The position numbers and the translations under genes are program-made. Below are positions 448 to 28,064 of a stretch of 40,121 nucleotides of DNA, piece after piece; positions within the stretch are counted from its first letter, which is position 1, and every line of letters begins with the position of its first letter. The stretch is taken from NCBI GenBank assembly GCA_944388865.1, contig CALXKM010000026.1, positions 1 to 40,121 of the forward strand, written 5' to 3'. The DNA is from an uncultured Duodenibacillus sp. (GTDB lineage Bacteria > Pseudomonadota > Gammaproteobacteria > Burkholderiales > Burkholderiaceae_F). Under the pieces are notes generated by a model that was not told where the DNA came from, ran no database searches, and saw nothing but the letters and a program-made list of their open reading frames with translations.

Positions 448-2502
448 ATGACAACAACAACTATCAAAACGGTGGCAAGCGCCCTGTTTTGCTCCGCTGC
501 TTTGGTTGCCGTTGGTGCCCAGGCCGCTGATGCCCCTGGTGTTGGCAACAAGAACCTCAACGCTTTGACGCAGAAGGTTTTGGCCAACCCGTCGACGACC
601 GAAAAGGAAATGGGTGTTCGCACCCTGCAGGACTACATCGTCCAGGAAAAGGAACTTTTCGACTTCCTCTTTGAAAACCATCCTGTTTTCAAGTATGCGG
701 AAGCCGGTCGCATCAAGGGTGTTTACAAGATTTCCACCCGCGGTTCTGAATTCCTCGGCGAAGGCAACGCCCAGGGCTACTCCAAGCTTGCCGGTGGCCG
801 TCCGAAGGCCTCGCAGTACCGTCTTGCCGCCAAGTCGATTCTCGACTATCCGAATCGCTTTGTCGGTCCGGAACGCTGCGGCGAATGCCATGCTATTCAG
901 TATGAAAAGTGGAAGAGAAGCCGTCATGCACAGACGATTCGCTTCCCGGGCGAACATCCCGAAGTCGACAACGATCTGAAAAAGAAGCTCTACGGCTCTC
1001 AGGCTTCCATCCTTCCTGACGGCATCACGCCCGACGTGATCTACGCCACGGTCGGTACGCCGCGTACGAAGTACGGCTACATCGACGCCTGGCTGGTTCG
1101 CGGCGCCTATCACATCCGTGATGGTCTGCTGCGCGACGGCACGGGTACGCTCGTTGCTGGCGGCAACCAGTTCTCCCGCGGCTGGGCTCAGTGGCTCACG
1201 CCCGAGCGCGCCAAGGAAATCCAGAAGGTGATCCCTGACTTCCCGACCGATATGAAGGCCATGGGCGGCTCTGCTTCGCACCAGTGGGGCATGACCTCCT
1301 ACGGTTCCTCCTTCGAGAAGGAATTCCTCTTCCAGCCCGCAAGCTCGTACTGCGAAGTCTGCCATGCCTTCAAGTTTGACTTTAAGGACAAGAAGGAATT
1401 CTTTGCTGCTTTGGGCAATCCGAAGGAACTGCAAAAGCACACCATTTCCCGCGGCATCGCCTGCGAGGAATGCCATGGTGCGGGCGGTCACTTGATCGGT
1501 GCTGAAAGCAACGGCTTCCAGACCAACTGCGAACGCTGCCACCAGCGCTCGAATTTCGTCGAATCCGACCTGAAGAACCCGGCTGCCGACGGCAAGCTTG
1601 AAAAGGGATTCAACGTCAAGACGAAGTCTTCGTGCCCGTCGTGCGGTACCGAAGGCTCGCAGCTCATGATGTCCAAGCACTATGAAAAGGGCATGCGCTG
1701 CGTCACCTGCCACGATCCGCATGAAGTGACCTCCAACGACTGGAAGGACTACTACACCAAGCCCGCTATTCGTCAGACCTGCCAGGACTGCCACGAAACT
1801 CAGGCTGATGTGATGGCCCAGACCAAGACCCACGTCGACATGGACTGCATCGACTGCCACATGCCGTTTACGATGAGCTGCGAAAACTTCACGGCCATCC
1901 AGCGTCCTGACATGGCAGGCTTTGACGCCGTTCGTCGTTCTCACCTCTGGCAGATCAAGGTTGATCCGACCGCCAAGATGATGAACCCGGGCGAAGGTCA
2001 GTCTCGTGCTTCCAACTCCAAGGGTTGGCACATTGCTCGTGACGACGAAGGTCACGGCTACCTCGACCTGATGTGGTCTTGCGCTCGTACGGCCAATGCC
2101 GAACAGGGCGTCATGAACAACAAGGGCTGCCACAGCGCCTTCCTGTCTGAGCTCGAAAAGGGCCTGCAGTACACCGATCAGAAGCAGATCTATGATGAAG
2201 TCATGAAGTGGCAGAATCCCGTTAAGGATGCCTACAAGGCTGCTGTCGCTGCTCAGGAACGCATCGAGAAGCTTCTCGAAGTGACCAAGGTTCCGACCGA
2301 GGCCAAGACTCAGATTCTGATGCTCGTCGATAAGTCCAAGGACATCACGACTCAGATCGAGAAGGACGGCTCCTATGGCGTTCACGCTCCCTCTTATCTC
2401 AAGACCCGCGCAGAAACGGCCAACGCATATCTGACGCAGGCTCAGGCGATCCTCGACAAGGGTGATTTCCCCCTCGTTGAGGCTAAGAAAGAAGCCAAGT
2501 AA
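448..2502 (+). CDS. mccA: Octaheme cytochrome c sulfite reductase MccA/SirA
   Basis: This is a periplasmic terminal reductase that would reduce sulfite to sulfide with six electrons. The 684-aa precursor has a signal peptide with a probable AQA-A cleavage near residue 26. Seven CXXCH heme sites start at C144, C302, C339, C361, C418, C445 and C467. The eighth is C545 and C561-H562, separated by exactly 15 residues: this CX15CH site is the hallmark of MccA/SirA. The family's active site is a heme c plus a Cu(I) held by cysteines. The non-heme cysteines C396, C399 (a CPSC pair) and C478 are the candidate copper ligands. The start has a good AGGAG. Downstream genes supply a quinol dehydrogenase, copper handling and a dedicated heme lyase, which fits the role. 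Identification is very secure; physiological direction is inferred from the family. Confidence 0.95.
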
Positions 2503-2543
2503 TCGGTAACTTCTAAACCAGTCAGCTCACTTTCCTGTGTGAA

Positions 2544-2576
2544 GGGAGCCCGGAAAAGAAAATTTCCAGGGCTCCC
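2544..2576 (+). other. Intercistronic hairpin after mccA
   Basis: GGGAGCCC (2544-2551) pairs with GGGCTCCC (2569-2576), extended inside by GGAAA/TTTCC. No T-run follows, so it is not a classical intrinsic terminator. It could stabilise the 3' end of the mccA message, so that the abundant cytochrome is made in excess of the genes downstream (inference). Confidence 0.65.
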
Positions 2577-2618
2577 GGATCCCAAAGGAAAGAGCAGACC
2601 AACCAAGTCAAAGGAATC

Positions 2619-3044
2619 ATGAAAACGTTTTTGACAGGGCTGGCGGCATGCGCCGCGCTTGCGCTTCCGTTATCGGTTTTGGCCGGCGGCGATGCTCCCA
2701 TTGAAGCAGCTCCGGCTTATGAACGCGCGATCCACAAGATCTCGATTTATGAGGCCGAGGAACTGCTCGGGCAGCCCGAGGTGACGTTCTACGATGTCAA
2801 CACGCTGGAGATCTGGGCCGATGGGTATATCCCGGGCGCCATTTTCTTCAATGTGGGCAACTGGCACAAGCTTCTTCCCGAAGACAAGAACGCGCCTTTG
2901 GTGTTTTACTGCGCCAACCGGTTGTGCAGCTCAAGCGAAATCGCAGCCTACGAAGTGATGAAGCTCGGCTACACCAACGTCATGCAGATGCCTGACGGCA
3001 TCTATGGCTGGAAGCTTGCCGGACGCAAGTTTGAACGCCCCTAA
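2619..3044 (+). CDS. Periplasmic rhodanese-domain protein
   Basis: The protein has 141 aa, an N-terminal signal peptide (probable cleavage near residue 22-24, LAGG) and a single rhodanese fold from about residue 38. The catalytic loop is C98-A-N-R-L-C103-S, so the expected active-site cysteine is present along with a second cysteine in the loop. D59 and the YIPGA segment (70-74) match conserved rhodanese features. AAGGA precedes the ATG. Rhodaneses move sulfane sulfur or bind sulfur compounds. Sitting between mccA and mccB, this one probably handles a sulfur species or a thiol during sulfite respiration or during copper/heme assembly. The true substrate cannot be read from the sequence. Confidence 0.85.
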   Translation: MKTFLTGLAACAALALPLSVLAGGDAPIEAAPAYERAIHKISIYEAEELLGQPEVTFYDVNTLEIWADGYIPGAIFFNVGNWHKLLPEDKNAPLVFYCANRLCSSSEIAAYEVMKLGYTNVMQMPDGIYGWKLAGRKFERP

Positions 3045-3055
3045 GAGAACGTTTG

Positions 3056-3074
3056 ACCGTCTCACGCAGACGGT
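3056..3074 (+). other. Small hairpin before mccB
   Basis: ACCGTCT (3056-3062) pairs with AGACGGT (3068-3074) over a 5-nt loop, 12 nt after the rhodanese stop codon. The run that follows is A-rich, so it is not a terminator on the + strand. The message probably continues into mccB. Confidence 0.4.
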
Positions 3075-3102
3075 TCCTACAAAAAAATTGAGATACAAAT
3101 TT

Positions 3103-3870
3103 ATGTTTGCCATGAAGAAAATCGTGCTGTTTGCCTCCGCTGCGCTCTGTGCGGGGTCTATGGCTTTTGCCGCTCCGCTTCAATCCCAGCAGGACAAGGA
3201 GTCCTACAGCATGGGAGCCTCAGTGGGCAACTACCTGTCCGATCAGATTTTCAAGCAGTCTGAGCTCGGCGCATCGATCAATATGGATCTCGTCGTGCAG
3301 GGTTTTGAAGAAGCGTTGCGCAACAAGAGTCAGCTCTCTGACGATGACGTGCTGAAGTTCCTCAACAGTCGTGCTGAGGAGCTCAACAAGCTCTATGACG
3401 CTCAAAAGAAGAAGATCGCTGCGGAAAATTCCGCCAAGGCGAAGGACTTCCTTGCCAAAAACGCCAAGAAAAAGGGCGTGACGGTAACCAAGAGCGGTCT
3501 GCAGTATGAAGTTCTGAAGAAGGGCAACGGTCAAAAGCCCAAGACCGAGGACGTCGTCACGGTCGACTATGTCGGCACCCTCATTGACGGTACCGTGTTT
3601 GAAAGCACGTACGAAACGAAGGAGCCGGCGCGGTTTGTTCTCATGACGGTGATTCCTGGCCTCGAAGAAGGCATCCGCTTGATGGATCAAGGATCGCGCT
3701 ATCGCTTCACGATCCCTGCGAATCTTGCCTACGGTGCGGATGGCGCCGGACAGATTCCTCCCGAATCTGTGCTCATCTTCGAGCTTGAGTTGGTGAAGGT
3801 TGAGAAGGTCGGAGCTCATAAGAACTTCGGCGAAGCAAACTTAAAAGGCATGACCAATCCTCATCAGTGA
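3103..3870 (+). CDS. mccB: FKBP-type peptidyl-prolyl isomerase (MccB-like)
   Basis: I place the start at ATG 3103 (255 aa); ATG 3112 is equally possible, and neither has a strong Shine-Dalgarno. Upstream in-frame sequence overlaps the rhodanese gene and does not look coding. A signal peptide (cleavage near AFA-APL) precedes a helical FkpA/Mip-like N-terminal domain with many Lys and Ala, then an FKBP domain at about residues 136-238, including VTVDYVGTL, VIPGLEEG and IPPESVLIF. Mcc clusters of Wolinella carry a prolyl isomerase gene next to mccA. The likely job is folding of the large multiheme apocytochrome in the periplasm. Confidence 0.88.
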   Translation: MFAMKKIVLFASAALCAGSMAFAAPLQSQQDKESYSMGASVGNYLSDQIFKQSELGASINMDLVVQGFEEALRNKSQLSDDDVLKFLNSRAEELNKLYDAQKKKIAAENSAKAKDFLAKNAKKKGVTVTKSGLQYEVLKKGNGQKPKTEDVVTVDYVGTLIDGTVFESTYETKEPARFVLMTVIPGLEEGIRLMDQGSRYRFTIPANLAYGADGAGQIPPESVLIFELELVKVEKVGAHKNFGEANLKGMTNPHQ

Positions 3871-3909
3871 TGAGGACTTCGAAGGCTCTTTAACAACAAG
3901 GTTGGCACC

Positions 3910-4563
3910 ATGATTGGGTTGACGGCGGCAATGGCCGCCTGCGGGATGGTCTTTGTTGCGGCGCTGGTGATGCACCACCGCTCGCAAAGAGGCGATGTTC
4001 GCTCCAAGCTGCCCTTCATGGCGGGATTGGCGGCAGCGGTTCTGGTGCTGAGCGCAGCCTCTTATGCGGCGCTCGGGCGGTGGTCCGACTGGCAGGAGCA
4101 AAGGGTTGACCGAGATGTCAGCTATCTGCTTGCGGCCAAAATCACCGAGGCGCAGCGGCGCGTCAAGAACGCGCCCGACAACATTGCCGCCCAGATCGAA
4201 CTGGCCGAAGCCTATCTCGAAGTGGGACGCTACCAGGATGCCGCAGACGTCTTTGACGTGTGTCTGACGTTGGGCGGCCCCAAAGCGGAAATCTTCGCGA
4301 AAAAGGCTTTTGCGCTCTACTACAGAGACGGTCGAAAGATGTCTGCCCAAGCCCGTGCCGCTGCTGATCAGGCATTGGCGCTGAACAAGCTCGATGTTCA
4401 GACGCGAATGCTCCTCGGACAAGATGCGTTCTTAAACGGGCGCTATGACGAGGCGATCCGACAGTGGCGGATGCTGCTGGACTCCGGAGCGGCCCCCGCT
4501 CAGGAAAGAGCGCTTCGAAATGCTATTGCCAACGCCGAGTCGAGAGCTCGGAAAAAAGACTAA
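3910..4563 (+). CDS. CcmI/NrfG-like TPR membrane protein
   Basis: The 217-aa protein has two N-terminal membrane segments (about residues 3-21 and 36-56), followed by a soluble region with TPR-like helices from about residue 80 to 215 (for example AQIELAEAYLEVGRYQDA and LLGQDAFLNGRYDEAI). This is the layout of CcmI/CycH/NrfG proteins, which present apocytochrome c to the heme lyase. In this position it most likely serves the CcmF-type lyase encoded at 10426 and the CX15CH site of MccA. It sits 39 nt after mccB and 49 nt before the mccC start. Assignment rests on topology and context rather than on a unique motif. Confidence 0.75.
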   Translation: MIGLTAAMAACGMVFVAALVMHHRSQRGDVRSKLPFMAGLAAAVLVLSAASYAALGRWSDWQEQRVDRDVSYLLAAKITEAQRRVKNAPDNIAAQIELAEAYLEVGRYQDAADVFDVCLTLGGPKAEIFAKKAFALYYRDGRKMSAQARAAADQALALNKLDVQTRMLLGQDAFLNGRYDEAIRQWRMLLDSGAAPAQERALRNAIANAESRARKKD

Positions 4564-4612
4564 TTGGCGGGTTTCGCTGCGAAAGCGACGAAATCTGTCC
4601 GTGGAGAAAATT

Positions 4613-5299
4613 GTGAGCGAAAGAATCGACAGGAGAAAATTTCTCGCAGGTGCCGGTGCCAGCTCGCTGCTCGTTCTGCCCTTAGCCGGGTGTGGAACAG
4701 GTGGAAAAACTGGCGACGGCAAGCAGCCTCACTATGTGATGGTCTTTGACCAGAACAAGTGCGTTGGCTGCCGCGACTGCAGAGAGGCCTGCAATGAGAC
4801 CAACAAGCTGCCCAAGGGCCGCTCGCGCCTCATTTTGGAACTTCAGGGCGACAAGGTCGAAGGCGAGCGCGGCTACGCTGCAAATCGCAAGTACGTTCGC
4901 GTTTCCTGCCAGCAGTGCAAGAACGCGCCGTGCGTGACTGTCTGCCCGACGGGCGCCGCTCATCGCGATCCGAAGACCGGCATCGTGACTATGGACGCCT
5001 CCAAGTGCGTCGGCTGCAAGTACTGCATCGTTGCCTGTCCCTACAACGCACGCTTTATCAATGAGGAAACCAAGGTTGCCGACAATTGCGACTTCTGCCT
5101 GCACAGCCGCCTGGAAAAGAACCAGCAGCCGGCTTGTGTGGAGAGCTGCAAGTACGACGCCCTTGTCTTTGGCGACATTAATGATCCGAAGTCGTACGTG
5201 AGCCGTTTGCTCGCCGTGAAGGATTCCGTGCGCATTCGCCCGGAACTCGGCACTGAGCCCTCGCTGCGCTACATCCCCATTGTGAAGAAAGGAGTGTAA
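4613..5299 (+). CDS. mccC: MccC/NrfC-like 4x[4Fe-4S] electron transfer protein
   Basis: The best start is GTG 4613, with GGAG at 4603-4606, giving 228 aa. A longer reading back to 4445 runs into the TPR gene. The N-terminus has a twin-arginine motif (DRRKFL) and ends in a lipobox-like LAGC, so it may be a Tat-exported lipoprotein. Sixteen cysteines lie in four NrfC-type clusters: CVGCRDCREAC, CQQCKNAPCVTVC, CVGCKYCIVAC and CDFC...CVESC. It would pass electrons from the membrane partner MccD to MccA. The gap to mccD is 2 nt, consistent with coupled translation. Confidence 0.92.
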   Translation: MSERIDRRKFLAGAGASSLLVLPLAGCGTGGKTGDGKQPHYVMVFDQNKCVGCRDCREACNETNKLPKGRSRLILELQGDKVEGERGYAANRKYVRVSCQQCKNAPCVTVCPTGAAHRDPKTGIVTMDASKCVGCKYCIVACPYNARFINEETKVADNCDFCLHSRLEKNQQPACVESCKYDALVFGDINDPKSYVSRLLAVKDSVRIRPELGTEPSLRYIPIVKKGV

Positions 5300-5301
5300 A
5301 G

Positions 5302-6231
5302 ATGGATATCGCCATGAACTTTACACTGGGTCTGACTGAGGGAATCAGCTGGCCGTGGCCGATCGCCGTCTACCTGTTTTTGGCAGGCATCTCGGGCGGT
5401 GCGGTGGCAGTGGCCATCATGATGAACCTCTATCGCAAGCAGACCGGGACCAATACGCCGCTCTTGAAGGCCGCGACGCTCATCGGCGCCGTGACCATTC
5501 TGCTCGGCATGGTCTGTCTGGTCCTTGACCTGACCAATCCGCTTTATTTCTGGCGCATTTTGGTCTTCTACAACCCAACTTCCGTCATGAGCTTGGGCGT
5601 GATGGCTCTGCTCTTTTACATCCCGCTCGTGTGCATCCTGATGCTCGTTGCCCTGCGCGACGAATTAAAGGACAGCCCTCTGGGATTCCTTGACGGGCTC
5701 GTCGGGTGGTTTGACTCGCATCGCTGCGGTCTGCAGTGGATCGTGCTTGTGCTCGCGCTCACCATCTGCGCGTACACGGGCTTCCTGATCTCTGCACTGA
5801 TCCGCTTCCCGCTGATCAACCAGGCTGTGCTGCCGGCGCTGTTTGTGGCGTCGGGCTTGTCGGCCGGCGCTGCCGCCTCCAAGATGGTGGCCGCGGGCAT
5901 GTTCGGCGAGAATCAGCATGGTGCGGATCTGAAGCTGCTGCACGGCGCCGAGTGGCCGATCATGGCCGCTGAAGCCTTGTGCATCTTCATGATCGCCGTC
6001 GCTTTGATCAGCGGCAATGCCGCGGCTCAGGCCGCTGCCGCCGCCTTTACGACGGGCGCCTGGGCGACCGAGTTCTGGATCGGCGTCGTGGGCATCGGCT
6101 TTATCGTGCCGATCCTGCTGTCGTGCGCCAAGAGCTCCGCAGCGTTCTATCTGTCCGGCCTCGCATCCGTGACCGGCATGATGTGCCTGCGTTTGTTCAT
6201 CCTCTACGCTGGTCAGCTCTACAGCATCTGA
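5302..6231 (+). CDS. mccD: MccD/NrfD-family quinol dehydrogenase membrane subunit
   Basis: The 309-aa polytopic protein has about eight membrane segments and the usual NrfD length. GGAG at the end of mccC serves as its ribosome binding site. NrfD-family proteins oxidise menaquinol and deliver electrons to the partner iron-sulfur protein. With MccC it should form the quinol:sulfite reductase electron entry module. The alternative start ATG 5314 is in frame. A strong terminator follows, making this the last gene of the first transcription unit. Confidence 0.92.
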   Translation: MDIAMNFTLGLTEGISWPWPIAVYLFLAGISGGAVAVAIMMNLYRKQTGTNTPLLKAATLIGAVTILLGMVCLVLDLTNPLYFWRILVFYNPTSVMSLGVMALLFYIPLVCILMLVALRDELKDSPLGFLDGLVGWFDSHRCGLQWIVLVLALTICAYTGFLISALIRFPLINQAVLPALFVASGLSAGAAASKMVAAGMFGENQHGADLKLLHGAEWPIMAAEALCIFMIAVALISGNAAAQAAAAAFTTGAWATEFWIGVVGIGFIVPILLSCAKSSAAFYLSGLASVTGMMCLRLFILYAGQLYSI

Positions 6232-6244
6232 CCGTGCAAAAGAT

Positions 6245-6312
6245 AGACTTCAGTCTGCGCATCCCTCTAACTCCCTTTGAGGGTGCGCAGCTGAGGTCTT
6301 TTCGTTTTTTTA
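6245..6312 (+). terminator. Intrinsic terminator after mccD
   Basis: A long stem beginning AGACTTCAGTCTGCGCA (6245-6261) pairs with the arm GAGGGTGCGCAGCTGAGG and onward (6280-6300) with few mismatches. A U-rich tail follows at 6299-6311. It separates the reductase genes from the nosL-to-ccmG unit, so the latter needs read-through or its own promoter. No clear promoter is visible in the 34 nt left before nosL. Confidence 0.85.
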
Positions 6313-6345
6313 GGCTTTTGCCTCCTTTTGCTTCAGGAGTTCTCT

Positions 6346-6822
6346 ATGCTCAAGCGCGTTTGGGCGGCTTGTCTTGCCGCCGCATTTCTCATCCCGGCAG
6401 CCAGCGCTGCGGCGCCCGTGCTCACGCAAAAGGATCAGTGCGCCTCTTGTGAGATGTGGATCACCAAGTATCCGGGACCTAAGGGCGCGGTGCAATTAAC
6501 CGACGGGACGGTGCTGAAGTACTGTTCGGCCAGAGGCGCAGCCTGCGGATGGACGAAAGCGCTCAAAGCCGGCAAGGCAAAATCCTTGTGGATGCATGAC
6601 GCTTCAGCCAATGATTGGAAAAAACCGGCCGATGATGCCATGGTTGACGTCAAAGATGCGTGGTTTGTCTACGGCTCCAAGATGAAGGCCGTGATGGGAC
6701 CTTCGCTTGCGCCATTTGCAGACAAGGCCAAGGCCGAAGCATTTCAAAAAGAGCACGGCGGCAAGATCTATCGCCTCAATGAGCTGACGGCCGAAGTGCT
6801 CGGCTGCGGAGCCAAGTATTAA
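6346..6822 (+). CDS. nosL: NosL-type copper chaperone, soluble periplasmic
   Basis: ATG 6346 with CAGGAG six bases upstream gives 158 aa. The signal peptide ends near AASA, without a lipobox. The NosL family metal site is seen as CASCEM, with a downstream KYC. The C-terminal part WFVYGSKMKAVMGP is typical of NosL. NosL binds Cu(I) for delivery to periplasmic copper enzymes. Wolinella mcc clusters encode a NosL-like protein (MccL) for MccA, so the same role is likely. It differs from the next gene in being secreted rather than lipid-anchored. Confidence 0.88.
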   Translation: MLKRVWAACLAAAFLIPAASAAAPVLTQKDQCASCEMWITKYPGPKGAVQLTDGTVLKYCSARGAACGWTKALKAGKAKSLWMHDASANDWKKPADDAMVDVKDAWFVYGSKMKAVMGPSLAPFADKAKAEAFQKEHGGKIYRLNELTAEVLGCGAKY

Positions 6823-6860
6823 AGGATTTGCCGCAAAAAAACGAGAAAGAGGGGGAGTCC

Positions 6861-7349
6861 ATGCTGAAAAAAACGTTTTTTGCGGCTTTTTTGGCCGCGG
6901 CGCTACTTGCGGGCTGCAGCGGCCAGCAAGCGCCGAAGACGCATCAGCCGGCTGCGATCGGAGCACATGACCGCTGCCATTTGTGCGGCATGGTGATCGT
7001 GCACTATGAAGGTCCCAAAGCGCAAATTTTCATCAAGGATGTTGAAGAGCCCTTGAAGTTCTGCTCAGGGCGCGATGCGTTTACGTTTGCGCTGCAGCCT
7101 GAGAATGCCCGCAGGCTTGAGGGCTTTTTCATACACGATTTGGCCAAAACCAACTGGAAAAAGCCTGACGACGCAGCTTTTGCCGATGCCAGAGCCATGC
7201 ATTTTGTCTACGGGCACAAGATTGCCGGTGTGATGGGCAATGAACCGGCGGCATTTTCCGACAAAAAGGCGGCTGAAGCTTTTATGGCCAAAGAGGGCGG
7301 AGCGCTTTACGGCTACAGCGACGTCACGCTTGAACTGCTGGAGAAGTAG
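6861..7349 (+). CDS. nosL: NosL-type copper chaperone, lipoprotein
   Basis: ATG 6861 follows a strong GGGGGAG; the in-frame ATG at 6828 is upstream of that site and less likely. The 162-aa product has a type II signal peptide with lipobox LAGC (C19), the NosL metal motif CHLCGM, a KFC equivalent, and the HFVYGHKIAGVMG segment. It is a second NosL paralogue placed 38 nt after the first, and the stop codon is followed after one base by the nosD start. Two chaperones of different anchoring suggest a relay of Cu(I) from the membrane to MccA (inference). Confidence 0.9.
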   Translation: MLKKTFFAAFLAAALLAGCSGQQAPKTHQPAAIGAHDRCHLCGMVIVHYEGPKAQIFIKDVEEPLKFCSGRDAFTFALQPENARRLEGFFIHDLAKTNWKKPDDAAFADARAMHFVYGHKIAGVMGNEPAAFSDKKAAEAFMAKEGGALYGYSDVTLELLEK

Positions 7350-7350
7350 G

Positions 7351-8643
7351 GTGACTGTGCGCCGCATGGCTATCGGGCTGCTTGCGTTTTTTGTCTGGGC
7401 AGCGGCGGCATGCGCTTCCGAATGCCGGGTGCTGACGCCGGCTGACGACGTGGCGGGCATTGTGGAGGCGGCAAAGGCCGGAGACGTGATCGAGCTTTCT
7501 CCCGGGGTCTATCACACGCATTTGATTGTCCGCGCGGCCATTACGCTCAGAGGTCAGCCTGGCGCCGTGATAGACGCTGGAGGAAAAGGAAGCGGCATTA
7601 CCGTGCGCATGCCCGAAGCGGTGGTCGAAAATCTCACGGTGCAAAACTACGGCGCCAACCTGTATGAGCGCGACGCCGGCGTGCGGGTAACCGACGGGGC
7701 CGATCAGGTCACGATTCGAGGCATGACTCTCAAAGGCCCCGGATTCGGCATTCGCGCTGATCGTCTGATGCGCATCGTCATCGAAAACAACACAATCGAG
7801 GGCAGGCGTCATATGCACGTGCTCGATCGCGGCGACGGCGTGTACCTCAACTACGTGCGCTATCCCAAGCTCACCGGCAACAGCGTGCGCAATGTTAGAG
7901 ACGGCTTTTATTTTGAAAATGTAGACGGCAGCGTGAGCCGCGGGAATTTTTTTACCGGCGCGCAGTACGGCATTCACTGGATGTACACGCGAGACGACAG
8001 TGCGTTTGACAATGTGGCCGCAGGCGTCATCGGAGGCTTTGCGCTGATGAGCTCCAAGCGCATTCACTTTGAAAACAACACTTCCAAGCAAAGTGTCGAG
8101 TTCGGCATCCTGCTCAATGTGTGCGATCGCTGCACGGTCAAGGGCAACCGCGTCGAAGGCGTGCACAATCCCAGGGGACGCGCGGCGCTCGACAACGAAG
8201 GCAAGGGGCTTTTCATCTACGGCCCCGGCGAAAACACGGTCGTGCGCAATTGGTTTGAGGGCGGCGACATCGGCGTGGGCGTTGCTTTGGGCGGCGAAGG
8301 AAACGTCCTGACGGAAAACACCTTCATCAACAACAAAATTCAGGTGCGCTACGTCGGCCGCGCTCCGCTTGAGTGGAGTTATGAGGGCCGAGGGAATTTC
8401 TGGAGCACATTCATGGCCTGGGATTTTGACGGCAACGGCATTGCCGACAAGCCCTATCAGCCCAACGACAGTCTGGACCGCATTTTCTGGATTTATCCTG
8501 AGGCGCGGTTTTTGATGGATAGTCCCGTTGTGGCGCTTTTGCGCTGGCTTGCGCAGCAGTTTGAAATTGACCGCGGCAAGGGCGTCACGGACAGCTTCCC
8601 GCTGATGGCTCCCATTGACGTGCCGGGTGCGGCGCAGCGGTAG
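7351..8643 (+). CDS. nosD: NosD-like periplasmic beta-helix copper protein
   Basis: GTG 7351, with GGAG at 7340-7343, gives 430 aa; ATG 7366 is an alternative. The signal peptide is cleaved near ACA-SE. The body consists of repeated parallel beta-helix rungs of the CASH/NosD type, rich in GN, EN and G-V-Y-L-N turns (for example IENNTIEG, LTGNSVRN, VKGNRVEG and LTENTFINN). NosD works with the ABC transporter NosFY in maturing the copper sites of nitrous oxide reductase. No nosZ lies in this window, so here it probably serves the copper site of MccA. Confidence 0.92.
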   Translation: MTVRRMAIGLLAFFVWAAAACASECRVLTPADDVAGIVEAAKAGDVIELSPGVYHTHLIVRAAITLRGQPGAVIDAGGKGSGITVRMPEAVVENLTVQNYGANLYERDAGVRVTDGADQVTIRGMTLKGPGFGIRADRLMRIVIENNTIEGRRHMHVLDRGDGVYLNYVRYPKLTGNSVRNVRDGFYFENVDGSVSRGNFFTGAQYGIHWMYTRDDSAFDNVAAGVIGGFALMSSKRIHFENNTSKQSVEFGILLNVCDRCTVKGNRVEGVHNPRGRAALDNEGKGLFIYGPGENTVVRNWFEGGDIGVGVALGGEGNVLTENTFINNKIQVRYVGRAPLEWSYEGRGNFWSTFMAWDFDGNGIADKPYQPNDSLDRIFWIYPEARFLMDSPVVALLRWLAQQFEIDRGKGVTDSFPLMAPIDVPGAAQR

Positions 8644-8654
8644 AAGGAACAAAA

Positions 8655-9554
8655 ATGACCCATTCATCGACTTCGATCAGCTGCAGTCATCTGGTATTTA
8701 AGCGCGGCGCCCGAACGATTCTCAACGACATTTCCTTTGATTTGAAAAAGGGAGCATTGACGGCGCTGATCGGGCACAACGGCGCGGGAAAATCGACGCT
8801 TCTGAAGCTCGTCCTGGGGCTGCTGGAGCCCTTTTCCGGCTCATTGACGGTGCTGGGCGCGGCCCCAGGCAGCAATCCCCTCAAGGTGGGCTATCTGCCG
8901 GAAAACGTGAGTTTTTACGATCAAATGACGGTCAGAGACCATCTTCGCTACTTTTCTGCGCTCAAATGCGTGAGCGAGCGCCGCGTTCAAGAGCTTGTCG
9001 AGCAGCTGGGCCTGACGGAGGTCATCGGACAAAAGCTCGGCCAGTGCTCAAAAGGGCAGCGCCAGAGGCTCGGACTTGCGCAGGCGCTTCTGACGAACCC
9101 CGAGCTGCTGATTCTCGATGAGCCCACCGTGGGACTGGATCCTGCAGCCTCTCTTTTGATGTACCGCGAGCTTTCAAGGCTTCGGGATGAGGGCTGCAGC
9201 GTGGTGGTCTGCACGCATGAGCTGGCGCTTGTTGAACATTATCTTGACAATGCGCTTGTGATTTCGCGCGGGCTTCTGGCCGGCGCCGGGACGCTCGACG
9301 AGCTGCGGGCGCAGGCAGGGCTTGCGGTGAGAATCACGCACATCGACACGGCAAAAATCAAGGCGCATGCCGAACTTTCAGCGCTGCTGCGCGGCGATGA
9401 TCTGCTGGTGCGCGCCGAAGAGCTCGAAGCCGTGATTGAAAAGCTTACGCGCGAGTGCGGAATTTTTGATTTTGAGGTCAAAAAGGCTGATTTAAGTGAA
9501 ATCTTCCGCTACTTTGTACTAAACGAAAAAGACCTCAGGGCGGAGACCCATTGA
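8655..9554 (+). CDS. nosF: NosF-like ABC transporter ATPase
   Basis: The 299-aa ABC ATPase has Walker A GHNGAGKST at residues 40-48, a signature region CSKGQRQR near 131-138, and Walker B with ILDEPTVGLDP (D155). A C-terminal domain of about 90 aa follows. AGAAGGA precedes the ATG. It energises the NosY permease, a membrane complex that supplies a sulfur or copper-related factor to NosD. The order nosD-nosF-nosY is that of nos clusters. Confidence 0.92.
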   Translation: MTHSSTSISCSHLVFKRGARTILNDISFDLKKGALTALIGHNGAGKSTLLKLVLGLLEPFSGSLTVLGAAPGSNPLKVGYLPENVSFYDQMTVRDHLRYFSALKCVSERRVQELVEQLGLTEVIGQKLGQCSKGQRQRLGLAQALLTNPELLILDEPTVGLDPAASLLMYRELSRLRDEGCSVVVCTHELALVEHYLDNALVISRGLLAGAGTLDELRAQAGLAVRITHIDTAKIKAHAELSALLRGDDLLVRAEELEAVIEKLTRECGIFDFEVKKADLSEIFRYFVLNEKDLRAETH

Positions 9555-9555
9555 C

Positions 9556-10356
9556 ATGCGAGAAACGCTCATTGTTGCCCGCAAGGAATTTATGGATTGT
9601 TTAAGAAGCCGCTGGCTCATCTCGGGCAGTCTGCTCTTTGCCATTCTCTCGATTGCGGTTTTTTTCGGCACGGCGGCCATTGGCGGCTCGCTGCAGTTTC
9701 AGCCTTTGGCCACGGTCGTCAATTCTCTTTTGAGCCTGACGGTATTTCTGCTGCCGCTTTTGTCGCTGATGCTGTGCTACGACGCCTTTGTGGGCGAGGC
9801 CGAGTCTGGGACGCTGCTGCTGATGCTCACGTATCCGCTTTCTAGAACGCAGTGGCTTCTGGGCAAGGCGCTTGGGCAAGGCTCGGCGCTGGCTGTCGTC
9901 CTTGTGCTTGGCTTTGCCGCGCTGCCTGTGCTGCAGGCTTTTTTAGAAGTGCCTTATCCCATGGGAGAGCTTTTGACTGCGCTTGGAAAGCTTGCCGCAA
10001 GCGGCTGGCTGCTGGCGCTTGTCTTCATGCTGTTGGCCTACTGGGTGAGTTTGATTGTGCGGCATAAGGCGCAGGCGCTTGCCGCTTTGCTGGTGCTTTG
10101 GTTTGTGCTTGTGCTTGTCTACGATCTGGCTCTTTTGGTGGTGAGCGTAGCGGGAGCCGACGTGTTTGGCCGAAGCGTTCTTTCCGGCATGATGCTTGCC
10201 AATCCTGCAAGCGTATTTCGTTTGATCAATCAGATGGGAGCTGCCGATGCGGCGCTTGTGCGGCCTGAGGCGGCGGTGCTCGCAGGCATTCTCATCGGCT
10301 GGGTGCTGGTGCTTTTTTTCATTTGCCGTTGGGTTCTCTTAAGACGGCGCATGTAA
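9556..10356 (+). CDS. nosY: NosY-like ABC transporter permease
   Basis: The 266-aa membrane protein starts one base after the nosF stop codon, so translation is probably coupled. It shows six membrane segments and the YDAFVGEAESGTLLLM region characteristic of the ABC-2/NosY family. It would form the NosFY transporter with the preceding ATPase, working together with NosD and the NosL chaperones. Confidence 0.9.
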   Translation: MRETLIVARKEFMDCLRSRWLISGSLLFAILSIAVFFGTAAIGGSLQFQPLATVVNSLLSLTVFLLPLLSLMLCYDAFVGEAESGTLLLMLTYPLSRTQWLLGKALGQGSALAVVLVLGFAALPVLQAFLEVPYPMGELLTALGKLAASGWLLALVFMLLAYWVSLIVRHKAQALAALLVLWFVLVLVYDLALLVVSVAGADVFGRSVLSGMMLANPASVFRLINQMGAADAALVRPEAAVLAGILIGWVLVLFFICRWVLLRRRM

Positions 10357-10374
10357 TGTGCTGGGACGATTCGT

Positions 10375-10428
10375 GCACGCTGCAAGCCGGCGTGCGCATC
10401 AAACATTGATGAAAGGATTCATGTTTTG
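10375..10428 (+). promoter_or_regulatory. Hairpin, ribosome binding site and minimal ORF before the ccmF-type gene
   Basis: GCACGC (10375-10380) pairs with GCGTGC (10390-10395). AGGA lies at 10414-10417. It is followed by a two-codon ORF, ATG TTT TGA (10421-10429), overlapping the UUG start codon of the next gene at 10426. This arrangement could limit or couple initiation at the weak UUG start. Confidence 0.5.
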
Positions 10429-12306
10429 ATTCCCGAACTTGGTCTTTTTCTGCTGGTTCTGGCCTCGATGACGGCTTTGCTCGGAGCGGCCGTCGTAGCC
10501 TGGGGACTGCGGCGCGCTGATGCTTATTTGACCGGACTGTGGCGGCCGACGGGGCTTTTTGCCGCTGCGGCTTTTCTGGCAAGCGCGGCGTGTCTTTGGA
10601 GCGCGTTTTTAAGCGACGATTTTTCCGTTGCCTACGTTGCCGACAACTCCAATACGGGGCTTGAGAGCATCTACAAATTTGCCGCCTTCTGGGGCAGCCA
10701 CGAGGGCTCGATGATGCTCTGGGTCGTGATGATTGCGCTGTGGGCGGCTGCAGCCGGGTGCTCTCGCGTCACAGACAAACTCTTTATGGCGCGCCTAGAG
10801 GCAGTGATGCTTGCTCTGGCGGGGCTTTTCGGCGCATTTTTGCTTGCCACCTCCAATCCGTTTGCACGAAATCTTCCGCTGGTTCCCGTCGAAGGACGCG
10901 ACTTGAACCCGATTCTGCAGGACGTCGGCATGATTTTGCATCCGCCAGTTCTTTTTATGGGATACGCGGGGTTGGCGCTGTGCTTTGCCGCAGCCGTGGC
11001 GCTGCTGCTTTCCGGCCGCTGGGAAAAGACGCCGGTGCGATTCATGACGGCATCGGCCGTGGTCACCTGGATTTTTCTGACAGCAGGAAATGCGCTTGGT
11101 TCCTGGTGGGCGTATACGGAGCTTGGCTGGGGCGGCTGGTGGTTCTGGGATCCGGTGGAAAACGCTTCGTTTATTCCATGGCTGGGCGTGAGCGCTCTTT
11201 TGCATGCGCTGATTTTGGCGCAGTACAAGGGGCAGCTCAAGCGTCTGTGCGTGGCGCTTGCCTTGACGTGCTTTGCGTTTTGTCTGCTGGGCACCTTCAT
11301 TGTGCGCTCGGGCATGATGCAGTCGGTGCACGCCTTTGCTTCCGATCCAAATCGCGGCATTGCGCTGCTGGTCATCTCGGCCGTGGTGCTGGTGCCGGCG
11401 TTCATTCTCTACGGTTTTCGGGTTGAAGCATGCTGCAGGGACACGGAAACAGAGCTCACGCGCGAAGACATTTTGATGACTGCCGGGGTCTTTCTGCTTT
11501 CGGCGGCCTGCGCTGCCGTGCTCATCGGCACGGTGTATCCGCTTTTTTACGAACTTTTTGCCGGCGCAAGCTTGACCGTAGGGGCGCCGTACTTCAATCA
11601 ATTTTTTGCGCCGATGGCCATCATTGCAGCGATATTGATCGGCTTGATTCAGGCGCTGCGCGCGGGCTCGATCGTGCTTGCTGCGGCCGCAGGACTCGTC
11701 TCCGTCGGGCTGGCAGGGGCGATCGTGGCGCTCACGGACCCGCGCGAGGCGCTGATGGCCTTTGCTGGAATTGCCGCCGCGCTCTGGCTGCTGCTGACGG
11801 CTGCGGCGGGGCTGCTGCCGGGCTTTAAGCGCCTGGGACTTGCCGCGACGATAGCGCATGCGGGCATTGCGGTGAGCATGCTGGGCGCAACAGGCGTCTC
11901 TCAGTATGAGTCCGAGGCCCTCGTGCGCATGGATCCGGGCTCGGGCAAGCCCGTTGCAGACGTCATCTTCGTCAACCGCGGAATCTACAAGGTCAATGCT
12001 CGCACGTATTTTGGCGACGCGGCCCGCATTGAGGTTCTGGATGCCGCAGACGAGTCGGTGTTGACGGAACTCTATCCGATGCGGCAGACGTTTATTTCGA
12101 GCGGCATGCAGATGTCGGCGGCAGGCATCGAACACGGACTTTTTCGCGATTATTATGTCTCAATGGGCAACAAGCTTTCGCCCACAGAGTGGCTTGTTCG
12201 ATTAAGCGTCAAGCCGCTTGCCTCCTGGATTTGGGCGGGCGCCGTCATTATGATGGCCGCCGGCGTCGTGATTTTGCTCAGACGCCGCGTTCGCAGCAAG
12301 GCATAA
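10426..12306 (+). CDS. CcmF/NrfE-type cytochrome c heme lyase
   Basis: The start is TTG 10426, supported by the N-terminus reading IPELG, which is the conserved beginning of CcmF proteins, and by AGGA nine bases upstream. The 626-aa product has many membrane segments, the tryptophan-rich WWD domain at about residues 226-246 (ELGWGGWWFWDPVEN), conserved histidines in WGSHEGS and LHPPVLFMGY, and a periplasmic domain before the last membrane helix. CcmF attaches heme to apocytochrome c. Its place beside mccA, as with SirE in Shewanella and in parallel to NrfE, suggests a dedicated lyase for the CX15CH heme. Confidence 0.92.
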   Translation: MIPELGLFLLVLASMTALLGAAVVAWGLRRADAYLTGLWRPTGLFAAAAFLASAACLWSAFLSDDFSVAYVADNSNTGLESIYKFAAFWGSHEGSMMLWVVMIALWAAAAGCSRVTDKLFMARLEAVMLALAGLFGAFLLATSNPFARNLPLVPVEGRDLNPILQDVGMILHPPVLFMGYAGLALCFAAAVALLLSGRWEKTPVRFMTASAVVTWIFLTAGNALGSWWAYTELGWGGWWFWDPVENASFIPWLGVSALLHALILAQYKGQLKRLCVALALTCFAFCLLGTFIVRSGMMQSVHAFASDPNRGIALLVISAVVLVPAFILYGFRVEACCRDTETELTREDILMTAGVFLLSAACAAVLIGTVYPLFYELFAGASLTVGAPYFNQFFAPMAIIAAILIGLIQALRAGSIVLAAAAGLVSVGLAGAIVALTDPREALMAFAGIAAALWLLLTAAAGLLPGFKRLGLAATIAHAGIAVSMLGATGVSQYESEALVRMDPGSGKPVADVIFVNRGIYKVNARTYFGDAARIEVLDAADESVLTELYPMRQTFISSGMQMSAAGIEHGLFRDYYVSMGNKLSPTEWLVRLSVKPLASWIWAGAVIMMAAGVVILLRRRVRSKA

Positions 12307-12328
12307 CTAAAACAGGACGACAGCAAAG

Positions 12329-12856
12329 ATGCGGTTTCGAATTGGTTCAGGCGGCGTGCTTGTGATGGCGCTTCTTCTTGGAGGCTTCATCAGCTGGTAT
12401 GCCGTGCCGACGGCATATGACCAGACAAGTTCTGCGCAGAAGATGGCGGCAGCTACGCAAATGATGGATGCTGCCCATGCTGCCGGCAAAGAAGATCAAA
12501 AAGGCGGCGCTCAGGCAAAGGGACTGCGCGGCCAAGAGCTTTACGACGAGGCCATCGCCATCTCAAAGCTTTTGCGCGACCCGTCTTCGGCAAACTACAC
12601 GCTTTACGACTCGGAAAGCGCCATTGCAGGGGAACTCAAGGCGCGCATCTACGAGCAGCTGCGCGAGGGAAAAACGCGCGAAGAAATTTTTGACTTTATG
12701 GTTGCGCGCTACGGCGAGATGATTCGCTACGAGCCCGACTTCAATGCGGGGACGGCGCTTTTGTGGGCTGCTCCCTGGCTTGCCGTGGCCGCAGGCATCG
12801 TTTTTCTGTGGAGGCGCCTGAAGCGCCGTCCGCAGCGAGAGCAGAGCAAAGTTTGA
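12329..12856 (+). CDS. CcmH/NrfF homologue lacking both redox cysteines
   Basis: The 175-aa protein has a membrane segment at about residues 9-28, a three-helix CcmH-like domain and a C-terminal membrane segment (about 137-158). The stretch VARYGEMIRYEPDF followed by LLWAAPWL matches the CcmH family closely. In the family the domain starts with LRCxxCQ; here it reads L82-R-D84-P-S-S87-A-N, so both cysteines are replaced. The whole protein contains no cysteine. It cannot act as a thiol oxidoreductase. It probably keeps a structural role, presenting apo-MccA to the lyase, in place of CcmH/NrfF. The gene lies 22 nt after the lyase gene. Confidence 0.85.
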   Translation: MRFRIGSGGVLVMALLLGGFISWYAVPTAYDQTSSAQKMAAATQMMDAAHAAGKEDQKGGAQAKGLRGQELYDEAIAISKLLRDPSSANYTLYDSESAIAGELKARIYEQLREGKTREEIFDFMVARYGEMIRYEPDFNAGTALLWAAPWLAVAAGIVFLWRRLKRRPQREQSKV

Positions 12857-12879
12857 ACAATAAAACTCAAGAGGTGTTG

Positions 12880-13503
12880 ATGATGAAGAAGTTTTTGAGC
12901 GTTCTGGCAATTGCCGCCGGTCTGCAGCTTGGACTGGTGCAGGCGGCGCAGGCCGTTGATGTTGCAAACCTGCCTGCTTTCCAGCAAAAGCTCTATGCAA
13001 ACGGCGAGCCGATCAAGGCCAAGCCCTTGGTGCTGCGCGACTTTATTGAACTGCGCAGTGCGCGCGGCTTTTCCAAGGCAACGCTCGAAGACCTCGGCGG
13101 CAAAAAATACGCGCTCAACGGTTTTAAGGACAAGCTTGTGATGATCGATATCTGGGCGACGTGGTGCGAGCCCTGCATCCGTTCGCTTCCTGCGATCAAA
13201 AAGCTTCAGGAGCGCTTCAACAACGACAAGAGCAGCGTGCGGGTTGTTTCCATTTCAATCGACAAGAAAAAAAGCGACGTGGTCGACTTCATTGAAGATC
13301 ATGATTTGAAGGGGTTTACAACGCTTCTCGATCCGAAGCAGTCTGTGGGCGATGATGCGCCGCTCGATGTGGTTCCGAGCGTTTTTATCCTTGACGGCAA
13401 GGGCAATCTTGTTGGGTTCGTGCGCGGCTTCGTGGATTGGTCCGACGACAAGGTGCCCGCTTACATTGAAGCGCTTGCACAGAAGTACGCGGTGCGCAAG
13501 TAG
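12880..13503 (+). CDS. CcmG/ResA-like periplasmic thioredoxin
   Basis: ATG 12880, or ATG 12883 immediately after it, follows GAGG at 12871-12874; longer readings overlap the previous gene. The product has about 207 aa with a signal peptide (cleavage near AQA-V) and a thioredoxin fold of the TlpA/ResA class. The active site is WCEPC (C96 and C99). These proteins reduce the cysteines of apocytochrome c before heme attachment. As the last gene of the unit, next to a cysteine-free CcmH homologue, it may carry the whole reductive step for MccA. Confidence 0.88.
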   Translation: MMKKFLSVLAIAAGLQLGLVQAAQAVDVANLPAFQQKLYANGEPIKAKPLVLRDFIELRSARGFSKATLEDLGGKKYALNGFKDKLVMIDIWATWCEPCIRSLPAIKKLQERFNNDKSSVRVVSISIDKKKSDVVDFIEDHDLKGFTTLLDPKQSVGDDAPLDVVPSVFILDGKGNLVGFVRGFVDWSDDKVPAYIEALAQKYAVRK

Positions 13504-24954: not shown

Positions 24955-25713
24955 CTACGACTGCAGAGCGTCTCCCAAGGCAAAAAGAAGACCATTGGCG
25001 CAGCCGTTGAAAACTTTTTTATTGTGAAAGGCCGTTGCGTGACGCCGCACGCGCATCTGCGGCCAGCAGTCAAATCGCGCGCCAAGACCAAGAAGAATCG
25101 CAAGGCCCGTGGGCGTCACGGCTTCTCCTTCGCCTGCAAAAGGCTTCACGGCCACGCCGTCAATCATCGAAAGCAGAGCCGGGGCAGGGTTGGTGACAAC
25201 GCCGTGGGCGCAGACGACTTCGCCGTCTCCGAGCGGCACTGGCGAGCAGACAAAATCAATTGGGTTGACCGCGGCGAATACTTCAGCAATCAGCCCTATG
25301 GCCAGAATGTTGCTCATGCGGCCTACTTCGTGAAAGTGCACGTCTTCAACGCAAGCATCGTGCACGCGCGCTTCGGCATGCGCAATCACCGACCAGATGC
25401 GGCGCGTGATATCTCGAGCTGCAGGAGTCAATGCACTTTCATTTTCGTAGATGGCCTCGATGTCTGCGGGCGTGCGGTGCACGTGCTCGTGCGGACAGTC
25501 CAAGCGGCAGGAAAATCCCGCAATGTGGTTCACCGACAAGGGATAGAGCAAAGCGTGCGCCTTGCTGCGGGGAAAAGCTGACTTTAAAAGATCCTCGAGG
25601 TTGAAAAGCTCAGCCGGGCCTGCAACGCTCAAAAGTCCGGCCAGGAAGCTTTCGGCATTAAGCCCTGAATGGATGCGGACCGTGAGAATGGGACGGGAAA
25701 AAACGTTCACCAT
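24955..25713 (-). CDS. larC: LarC-like protein (DUF111), N-terminal part only
   Basis: ATG 25713 gives 252 aa; the longer reading runs antisense-like into larB. LarC inserts nickel into the pyridinium pincer cofactor of LarA enzymes. Family features are seen in HRTPADIEAIYE, VHDACVEDVHFHEVG, SPVPLGDGEVVCAHGVVTNPAP and EAVTPTGLAILL. The usual N-terminal FSGISGDM motif is changed (HSGLNAES). The chain ends about where LarC1 ends, and a terminator stands 100 nt downstream, so there is no room for the LarC2 domain. It may be a short functional variant, a specialised paralogue, or a decayed gene. Confidence 0.78.
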   Translation of the reverse strand: MVNVFSRPILTVRIHSGLNAESFLAGLLSVAGPAELFNLEDLLKSAFPRSKAHALLYPLSVNHIAGFSCRLDCPHEHVHRTPADIEAIYENESALTPAARDITRRIWSVIAHAEARVHDACVEDVHFHEVGRMSNILAIGLIAEVFAAVNPIDFVCSPVPLGDGEVVCAHGVVTNPAPALLSMIDGVAVKPFAGEGEAVTPTGLAILLGLGARFDCWPQMRVRRHATAFHNKKVFNGCANGLLFALGDALQS

Positions 25714-25747
25714 GGCAGTAAAGATGTAGGAGCAAAAATTTTTTGAT

Positions 25748-26434
25748 TTAGACGTCAGGATACATCGCGCGCAGCACGCGCGCCGCAGCGCAGGCCGCAC
25801 CGTAGCCGTTGTCGATGTTGAAGACGCCGATGCCCGGGGCGCATGAAGCGAGCATGCTCGAAAGCGCGGTTTTGCCGTGTTCGGCAATGCCGTACCCTAC
25901 AGAGGTCGGAACGGCAAAAAGCGGCTTGTCGGTGAGGCCTCCTACGACGCTTGCCAGCGCAGCGTCCAAACCCGCGACGACAATCACGACGTCGGCCTTG
26001 TTGATTTCGGCAATGGCCGACTGTATGCGCCACAGGCCCGCCACGCCGCAGTCTTCAAAACGCTCGGCGCTCCAGCCGAGGTATTGAAGCGTGCGCGAAA
26101 CCTCGCGCGCGACGCTGCCGTCGGCTGTGCCGGCACTTACGACGGCGGCCTTGCCTTTGGCGTGCGGCGCAAGCGTTGTGCGCCAGGCCGTGCGGCTTAA
26201 GCTTTCATAGTCGTACGCTTGCTGCAGGTGCTGCGGCAGAGAGTTAAAGACTTCAGGCGACAATCGAGTAAAGAGAATAGGTTTTTCCTTAGGGTCGGCA
26301 AAACGCTCGAGAAGCGTTTCGAGCGCCCGGCGGGGCTTTCCCTCGCAGAAGACGGCCTCGGGAAGACCGATGCGCACGTCGCGTTCAGTATCAAAGCGAA
26401 TGCAGGGCGAAGAGGCTGGCGTCGGAACAGGCAT
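25748..26434 (-). CDS. larB: LarB, pincer cofactor carboxylase
   Basis: ATG 26434 gives 228 aa, while ATG 26485 would add 17 residues; neither has a clear Shine-Dalgarno. LarB carboxylates nicotinic acid adenine dinucleotide as the first step of the nickel-pincer nucleotide. It is related to PurE, seen in ADVVIVVAGLDAALASVVGG, VPTSVGYGIAEHG and the final NIDNGYGAACAAARVLR. The GLPEAVFCEGK segment matches the LarB start region. The N-terminus is somewhat shorter than usual. It lies 34 nt upstream of larC. Confidence 0.9.
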   Translation of the reverse strand: MPVPTPASSPCIRFDTERDVRIGLPEAVFCEGKPRRALETLLERFADPKEKPILFTRLSPEVFNSLPQHLQQAYDYESLSRTAWRTTLAPHAKGKAAVVSAGTADGSVAREVSRTLQYLGWSAERFEDCGVAGLWRIQSAIAEINKADVVIVVAGLDAALASVVGGLTDKPLFAVPTSVGYGIAEHGKTALSSMLASCAPGIGVFNIDNGYGAACAAARVLRAMYPDV

Positions 26435-26565
26435 GGCGGCAATAAGGCAATAAAACGAAGTTGAGCGAAGGCTAGCACGGCTCATGCGCAATGCCGGCAG
26501 AATGCCCTCAACTTTGAGACAAACAGGCACGGCTTCACGCAAGAACAAATGAGCGAACAGATACT

Positions 26566-26612
26566 TAAAAAGAATTCGGCTTCGCTCGAGATTATTCTGA
26601 AGCGAAGCCGAA
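26566..26612 (-). terminator. Terminator between larA and larB
   Basis: TTCGGCTTCGCT (26575-26586) pairs perfectly with AGCGAAGCCGAA (26601-26612). On the - strand the stem is followed by TTCTTTTT. It lies 37 nt past the larA stop codon, so larBC are made by read-through or from their own promoter. Confidence 0.85.
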
Positions 26613-26649
26613 GTCGATGTGCAGCTCTCAGAGCCTGCAGCTTGAGAAC

Positions 26650-27924: not shown

Positions 27925-28064
27925 GCTCTTACCCTCGTTAAATTCAATTTCTTGAGATTGCGGCTGCATGGCGAAACGAAATTCTGCATTTCTTTGTTTT
28001 GGTTAGAAGGCAAAGGCGCTGCTTAGCGCAAAAAAGCAGGAATTTCTTCGCACGTTCAACCGAT

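Follow-up and report, generated by a model that had tools for sequence, protein, structure and literature searches.

A probable SirA/MccA-type sulfite respiration operon in a Duodenibacillus-like member of the Sutterellaceae

Introduction

The closest known counterparts of the locus reported here are the sir genes of Shewanella and the mcc genes of Wolinella. The locus itself is a block of 14 co-directional genes, headed by a gene for an MccA/SirA-type cytochrome, in a 40,121-nucleotide stretch of DNA from an uncultured Duodenibacillus sp. (contig CALXKM010000026.1; the whole stretch is referred to below as the window). In Shewanella, SirA is a demonstrated sulfite reductase that has been studied with sulfite as the sole electron acceptor. 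According to the accessible portions of that work, sulfite reduction is lost on deletion of sirEF and falls when SirG or CcmI, two proteins acting together, is missing; SirH contributes but is non-essential (PMC6976685). An available section of a review on NrfD-like proteins places MccD in 51 species, among them 35 gamma- and 15 epsilonproteobacteria (PMC8076601).

An operon of the same type has been described by Ravcheev and Thiele in 2014 for Burkholderiales bacterium 1_1_47, where it was predicted to encode a thiosulfate reductase, tsrABCDEFGHIJ, because the Shewanella orthologue is induced by thiosulfate (PMC4257093). Compared by description only, and as far as the accessible text goes, the Tsr operon resembles the window block in comprising a cytochrome and homologues of NrfG, an iron-sulfur (FeS) protein, NrfD and NosLDFY in a genome with no nosZ, whereas it differs in its predicted substrate, thiosulfate, and in that a heme lyase and a rhodanese are not mentioned (PMC4257093). 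The operon type is thus not new: it is of a known kind and is in print, with another predicted substrate, for a related gut bacterium. The titles and the opening parts of abstracts that were searched, with subscription papers mostly beyond reach, held no report of MccA-dependent sulfite respiration in the Sutterellaceae. In three papers on gut sulfide and respiration MccA is not named as a sulfite reductase: the term does not occur in the available part of PMC4257093, and in the corresponding parts of PMC8564485 and PMC13232883 'mccA' appears in lists of cysteine-degradation genes.

Identity and motifs of the cytochrome

The block lies on the plus strand at positions 448-13503 of the window and very probably constitutes a SirA/MccA-type operon for respiratory sulfite reduction. 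A phmmer search of its first gene product against all PDB sequences (E ≤ 0.001) returned Wolinella MccA (4rkm/4rkn) as the sole match, with 715.9 bits and an E value of 4.7e-214 over residues 12-671, at 47% identity. The protein displays a signal-like N-terminus (by eye), CXXCH sites at C144, C302, C339, C361, C418, C445 and C467, and a CX15CH motif made up of C545, C561 and H562; the seven sites and the exact CX15CH given in the original prediction were re-counted at these same positions. Chance or misannotation was considered as an explanation and is ruled out by the near whole-length PDB match together with the Pfam and NCBIfam identities of the neighbouring genes. Cys399 and Cys495 of Wolinella MccA are, we assume, the ligands of the heme-copper site. 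C399 and C478 of the window protein align with residues 411 and 507 of the 4rkm chain (counted by eye), and since these lie 96 residues apart, as do Cys399 and Cys495, the spacing fits the presumed copper cysteines.

The conservation of these features was followed in a 95-row alignment, consisting of the window protein and 94 open reading frames (ORFs) from selected loci, filtered for at least 600 amino acids (aa), at least six CXXCH sites and two short motifs. The two presumed copper cysteines, like the CX(n)CH residues, were found in 95 of 95 rows, and all seven CXXCH sites in 93, the two exceptions being one locus fetched twice, in which C445 is replaced by F. This locus (L030/L046, genome G053) encodes an MccA of the distant lineage B introduced below, with six CXXCH sites; either a sequence error or a lost heme is possible. 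The eighth motif has the spacing X15 in 85 rows, X17 in 8 and X18 in 2, and the two longer spacings are limited to L095, L098 and genomes from the order of L095, with CX18CH in L130 and L132. Several loci were fetched twice (for example L095/L125, L104/L044, L018/L045, L030/L046 and L026/L039), so that locus counts are non-independent; loci outside the alignment include L021, L082, L087, L105, L106, L110, L115, L138, L139, L142 and L146.

Phylogeny and distribution

An MccA tree was computed from 63 rows without an outgroup, with the midpoint root serving for drawing only; rows of 32 loci, mostly near-duplicates chosen by hand, were omitted and 4rkm was added. The window protein fell inside the MccA/SirA family, so that the outside placement named beforehand as a refutation of the original prediction did not occur; it lies within a 16-row clade (support 100/99) composed of Sutterellaceae and one unplaced Burkholderiales metagenome-assembled genome (MAG), in a position near Shewanella SirA. 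A long branch leads to the Wolinella clade, and the backbone is weakly supported among Shewanella. The Shewanella proteins share 58-67% identity with the window MccA (22 loci).

The nearest named MccA records belong to uncultured Duodenibacillus MAGs (99% and 93% identity), followed by Sutterellaceae/Sutterella MAGs (86%), Sutterella wadsworthensis 2_1_59BFAA (83%) and Duodenibacillus massiliensis (78%). Judged by these records the host genome (G000; 2.49 Mb, 98.8% complete, with a single MccA match) is that of a Duodenibacillus-like member of the Sutterellaceae, in line with the taxon first guessed. The gut habitat proposed at the same time is suggested through relatives only: Sutterella, Parasutterella, Turicimonas and Duodenibacillus are gut bacteria, some relatives' record titles name rectum or colon samples, and from these the host too probably inhabits the animal gut.

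A survey of the family, which had been proposed as a check, gave MccA matches in 29 of 67 genomes. Full or near-full MccA is carried by 25 of the 67 (in G060 as fragments at contig ends only), and the remaining four matching genomes comprise G054, with a half-length form only, and three with weak matches to other multiheme proteins. A second, distant MccA lineage (B) occurs in other Sutterella, namely S. wadsworthensis DSM 14016 and S. massiliensis, at approximately 50% identity, and sits in a different tree group with support 100/100. Lineage-B loci (L099, L104, L114, L018, L030 and L044) are sometimes present in two copies per genome, and the window genes matched there besides MccA are the rhodanese and, weakly, the ABC genes only.

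Other reductases and copper enzymes in the host genome

The host genome gave no match to NIR_SIR (PF01077), for which 11 of 14 control genomes were positive. Within the limits of 98.8% completeness this means that no Dsr, Asr or CysI is present, and MccA is the sole recognised sulfite reductase in the genome; the earlier claim of sulfide formation outside the Dsr pathway gains support from this result. Likewise, NosZ (TIGR04246, a model of one NosZ type) was matched in none of four Sutterellaceae genomes, the host included, as compared with 917 bits in a control genome; among the named controls 6 of 14 matched TIGR04246, none over the cut-off, and a further NosZ model, PF18764, matched no control genome. 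Given that no NosZ was matched, MccA is the only nameable client for the NosL and NosDFY genes. The NosL/D and the Nrf-like C, D, E, F and G components could also be taken as signs of a nos remnant, or of a nitrite or N-oxide reductase with borrowed parts. Such an origin is exceedingly improbable, considering both the NosZ result in the host and the three further genomes and the catalytic subunit, which is not NrfA but a complete MccA that has both presumed copper cysteines. The host genome also contains a second CcmF-like gene elsewhere, 40% identical to the operon copy, and the operon CcmF is therefore an additional one.

Proposed mechanism

By analogy with Shewanella and Wolinella, from which the activity, the electron path, the delivery of copper and heme and the respiratory use are transferred, the NrfD-like protein would oxidise quinol and pass electrons via the NrfC-like ferredoxin to periplasmic MccA, which would reduce sulfite to sulfide in a six-electron reaction, with C399 and C478 holding the heme c/Cu(I) site at which it takes place. 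Copper would be delivered by the two NosL proteins, NosD and the ABC pair. Attachment of the CX15CH heme would fall to the operon CcmF and CcmH together with the tetratricopeptide repeat (TPR) protein and TlpA, with the seven CXXCH sites served by the general Ccm machinery; the isomerase may assist folding, and the rhodanese-like protein would be a conserved accessory with a putative role.

Several observations weigh against this scheme. Thiosulfate induces the operon in Shewanella (a finding cited in the accessible part of PMC4257093), and Sulfurospirillum arcachonense and S. barnesii, according to the portion available of PMC4794192, encode an mccA-like enzyme yet are unable to use sulfite. 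Sulfite reduction by members of the Sutterellaceae is itself a prediction. The FeS/NrfD pair is absent from some Shewanella blocks, so such systems do not always include the quinol link. Moreover, the host match to Xsc reached 279 of 676 bits, below the cut-off, and since all 14 controls match likewise it probably represents another thiamine enzyme; no PFL-like enzyme was found in the host genome (3 of 14 controls positive), and hence no glycyl-radical isethionate lyase. With neither of the two tested types of sulfite-releasing enzyme found, sulfite would have to come from outside or by another route, for instance through SuyAB or TauD.

The lack of these two enzyme types would also be compatible with sulfite detoxification instead of growth support, sulfite being toxic. 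This alternative appears rather unlikely to us, as respiratory systems typically have a quinol-linked NrfCD and maturation genes of their own. The Shewanella orthologue, furthermore, is expressed and has been studied with sulfite as the sole electron acceptor, as stated in the accessible portions of PMC6976685.

Gene content of the block

The 14 genes are listed in Table 1. Genes were called with Pfam and NCBIfam models, and several likely starts fall inside the mechanical ORFs. All genes named in the original prediction are present by these models, while the rhodanese-like and NrfG-like TPR genes had been missed. The window holds the gene set of a sir operon, with C, D, G, isomerase, NosL, NosD, ABC pair, E, F and H partners.

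Table 1. Genes of the sulfite reduction block, with positions in the window
Gene product	Position	Strand	Evidence and remarks
MccA/SirA, octaheme cytochrome c sulfite reductase, 684 aa	448..2502	+	7 CXXCH + CX15CH; PDB match; tree
Rhodanese-like protein, 141 aa	2619..3044	+	PF00581 E 2.9e-10; signal-like N-terminus (by eye); loop C98-ANRL-C103
FKBP-type peptidyl-prolyl isomerase, MccB-like (the name MccB is our assumption)	3112..3870	+	PF00254, PF01346
NrfG/CcmI-like TPR protein (SirG-like apocytochrome chaperone)	3910..4563	+	TPR_CcmH_CycH 31 bits (below cut-off 42); NrfG model 78 bits (below cut-off 306)
4Fe-4S ferredoxin, NrfC/MccC/SirC-like	4601..5299	+	PF13247; NrfC model 230 bits (below cut-off 377.6); RRKF near N-terminus; probable GTG start
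NrfD/MccD/SirD-like integral membrane quinol dehydrogenase	5302..6231	+	PF03916 E 4.2e-64
NosL-like copper chaperone 1	6346..6822	+	PF05573; ATG start
NosL-like copper chaperone 2	6861..7349	+	PF05573; ATG start; lipobox-like LLAGC (by eye)
NosD	7366..8643	+	TIGR04247 372.5 bits (above cut-off 300)
NosF-like ABC ATPase	8655..9554	+	PF00005; name from position
NosY-like ABC-2 permease	9556..10356	+	PF12679; name from position
CcmF/NrfE-type heme lyase (SirE-like)	10426..12306	+	PF16327, PF01578; TIGR03145 611.5 bits (below 927.3); PRK10369 404.6 bits (above 394); TTG start
CcmH/NrfF-like (SirF-like) protein	12329..12856	+	PF03918
TlpA/ResA-like thioredoxin (SirH-like)	12880..13503	+	PF08534, PF00578

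The window begins at base 1 of the contig and only 447 bases precede mccA, leaving upstream genes out of view; in the nearest relative (L049:8628-9545) a divergent gene of LysR-like look (by eye) is located 5' of mccA. A scan for promoter-like sites found 0 against 4.2 expected, and terminator-like sites numbered 22 against 19.1 expected. Further downstream, positions 24955-27969 hold a set of ORFs resembling the LarA/LarB/LarC nickel-pincer racemase system (by eye) and adjoining a transporter-like ORF, and LarB/LarC-looking ORFs were also seen by eye near the lineage-B mccA in L099.

The rhodanese-like partner and the substrate

A rhodanese gene is found directly 3' of mccA for 63 of 70 MccA ORFs (loci L049-L115). 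Of the seven misses, four are no more than 222 bases from the end of a locus, one concerns an ORF fragment, and two (L104 and L105) are real. In a wider set the rhodanese follows 74 of 94 mccA genes, the 20 misses comprising 13 Wolinella-type genes (one cut), three cuts at locus ends, and four rows that are two Sutterella lineage-B loci fetched twice. Of all neighbours of non-Wolinella-type mccA the rhodanese is thus the most constant, and 62 of 64 rhodanese proteins carry the C-x4-C pair. In L095 (Campylobacteraceae MAG; L095:11603-13681) and L098 (Mucispirillum) it forms the N-terminal part of a protein of 693-696 residues with 6 CXXCH sites, which in L095, the only one of the two scanned, also matches the cytochrome-b561 family; the fused Mucispirillum rhodanese is without both cysteines. 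In L125-L132 (L125 being the place of L095) the rhodanese match is again situated within a long frame downstream. The adjacency and the fusions point to a partner that may act at MccA or at its electron donor. The word 'rhodanese' is absent from PMC6976685.

These findings bear on the substrate. The operon could serve primarily for thiosulfate reduction, as implied by the tsrABCDEFGHIJ naming in Burkholderiales bacterium 1_1_47, which derives from thiosulfate induction in Shewanella (accessible part of PMC4257093); in one form of this explanation the rhodanese would split thiosulfate to sulfite and a protein persulfide, and MccA would reduce the sulfite. The constancy of the rhodanese-like neighbour fits such a role, as does, from what is available of PMC10376724, the occurrence in Dethiobacter of SirA-like octaheme proteins adjoining rhodaneses, one of them upregulated on thiosulfate. 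Nevertheless, a primary thiosulfate function is unlikely in our estimate. Sulfite reductase activity has been demonstrated for the Shewanella orthologue, as the available parts of PMC6976685 report, the Wolinella-type loci contain no recognisable rhodanese, the window rhodanese has a loop Cys where 6mxv has Arg (alignment, by eye), and the fused Mucispirillum protein has lost both cysteines. On the strength of orthology with Shewanella SirA, sulfite would be a better substrate than thiosulfate for the window MccA.

Sulfite reduction being the preferred function, the rhodanese might nonetheless be a true third member of most MccA systems. It would then act in the periplasm as a relay for sulfur or copper, either freeing sulfite from thiosulfate for MccA or handling persulfide or copper at the enzyme, a suggestion that we advance with considerable doubt. 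If true, sulfite chemistry would be compatible with both the thiosulfate induction and the Tsr prediction, and these bacteria would make sulfide from sulfite as well as thiosulfate.

Half-length MccA beside a Ydh-type oxidoreductase

A half-length form of MccA, covering the C-terminal part only, was found in 12 copies in 9 of the 67 family genomes (L031-L041 and L043); at E 0.001 the host genome held no copy. The proteins measure 333-382 aa and have a signal-like N-terminus (by eye) and four heme motifs, the last with X15 or X16 spacing, while the copper cysteines are gone. The CX16CH form is seen, for example, in L036:6402-7550, L039:7935-9014 and L041:7573-8652 (counted by eye). In 10 of the 12 copies the gene order is FeS protein, tungsten-type aldehyde ferredoxin oxidoreductase, a protein of approximately 280 aa, half-MccA, FeS protein and NrfD (examples are L038:75-5813 and L041:3781-10359). 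L038 is without the first FeS gene, the contig starting there, and L043, a contig of 4.8 kb, holds half-MccA, the oxidoreductase and the first FeS gene only, with no gene for the approximately 280-aa protein between the first two. The L038 oxidoreductase passes the PRK09849 cut-off, and its approximately 280-aa neighbour matches the YdhW model below the cut-off; the oxidoreductase, this neighbour and the FeS protein are presumably YdhV, YdhW and YdhY of the Escherichia coli Ydh system.

Each of the 13 half-MccA rows (one locus twice) scored best, by mean score, against the MccA lineage to which the window protein belongs, and in L038 the FeS protein shares 62% and the NrfD protein 64% identity with its window counterpart. 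These lineage scores and identities suggest that a part of the family's sir operon was copied, with the electron relay reused by a Ydh-type enzyme.

Implications

If the assignment holds, a siroheme-free sulfite reductase in 25 of 67 family genomes would escape surveys based on dsrAB and asrABC, and the thiosulfate function in print calls for reappraisal. A second CcmF, and a copper module in a genome in which no NosZ was matched, would in addition offer natural test systems for heme attachment at CX15CH and for NosL/NosDFY serving another enzyme.

Comparison with known systems

The closest counterpart of the window block is the Shewanella arrangement sirAIGCDJKLM with sirEFH. Matches to the rhodanese, isomerase and NrfG-like genes were found in 22 of 22 Shewanella loci, to the lyase genes E, F and H in 21, to NosL in 20 and to NosD and both ABC genes in 19 (L068, L071 and L106 are short or cut). 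Conversely, the FeS/NrfD pair was matched in 14 of the 22 loci and gave no match in 8. A gene-by-gene reading of L069 and L064 showed NosL immediately after the NrfG-like gene and no FeS/NrfD pair in the block, and in L065, L070 and L072-L075 the pair is unmatched with the rest of the block present. The arrangement differs from that of Shewanella in two further respects: the window carries E, F and H behind the copper genes and on their strand, whereas the Shewanella genes E, F and H are found upstream in the opposite orientation, and the window has two nosL genes, unlike the Shewanella loci.

The Wolinella-type loci of the Campylobacterales, represented by six related loci of 19 kb each with the Wolinella genome itself outside the set, share with the window a full-length MccA carrying CX15CH and the two cysteines, and the order MccA, isomerase, FeS, NrfD. 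No rhodanese or NrfG match was obtained in any of the six. In four of them an ORF of 875-900 aa near NrfD gives a weak CcmF match and is presumably CcsA1; the window lyase is of the CcmF/NrfE type and not of the CcsA1 type. The neighbourhood that the original prediction ascribed to Wolinella and Shewanella alike therefore holds for the Shewanella sir plan, but less so for the Wolinella type with its missing rhodanese and NrfG. Dsr and Asr catalyse the same conversion of sulfite to sulfide but differ as siroheme enzymes. Among the MccA systems compared, the window block resembles the Shewanella sir loci more than the Wolinella-type mcc loci.

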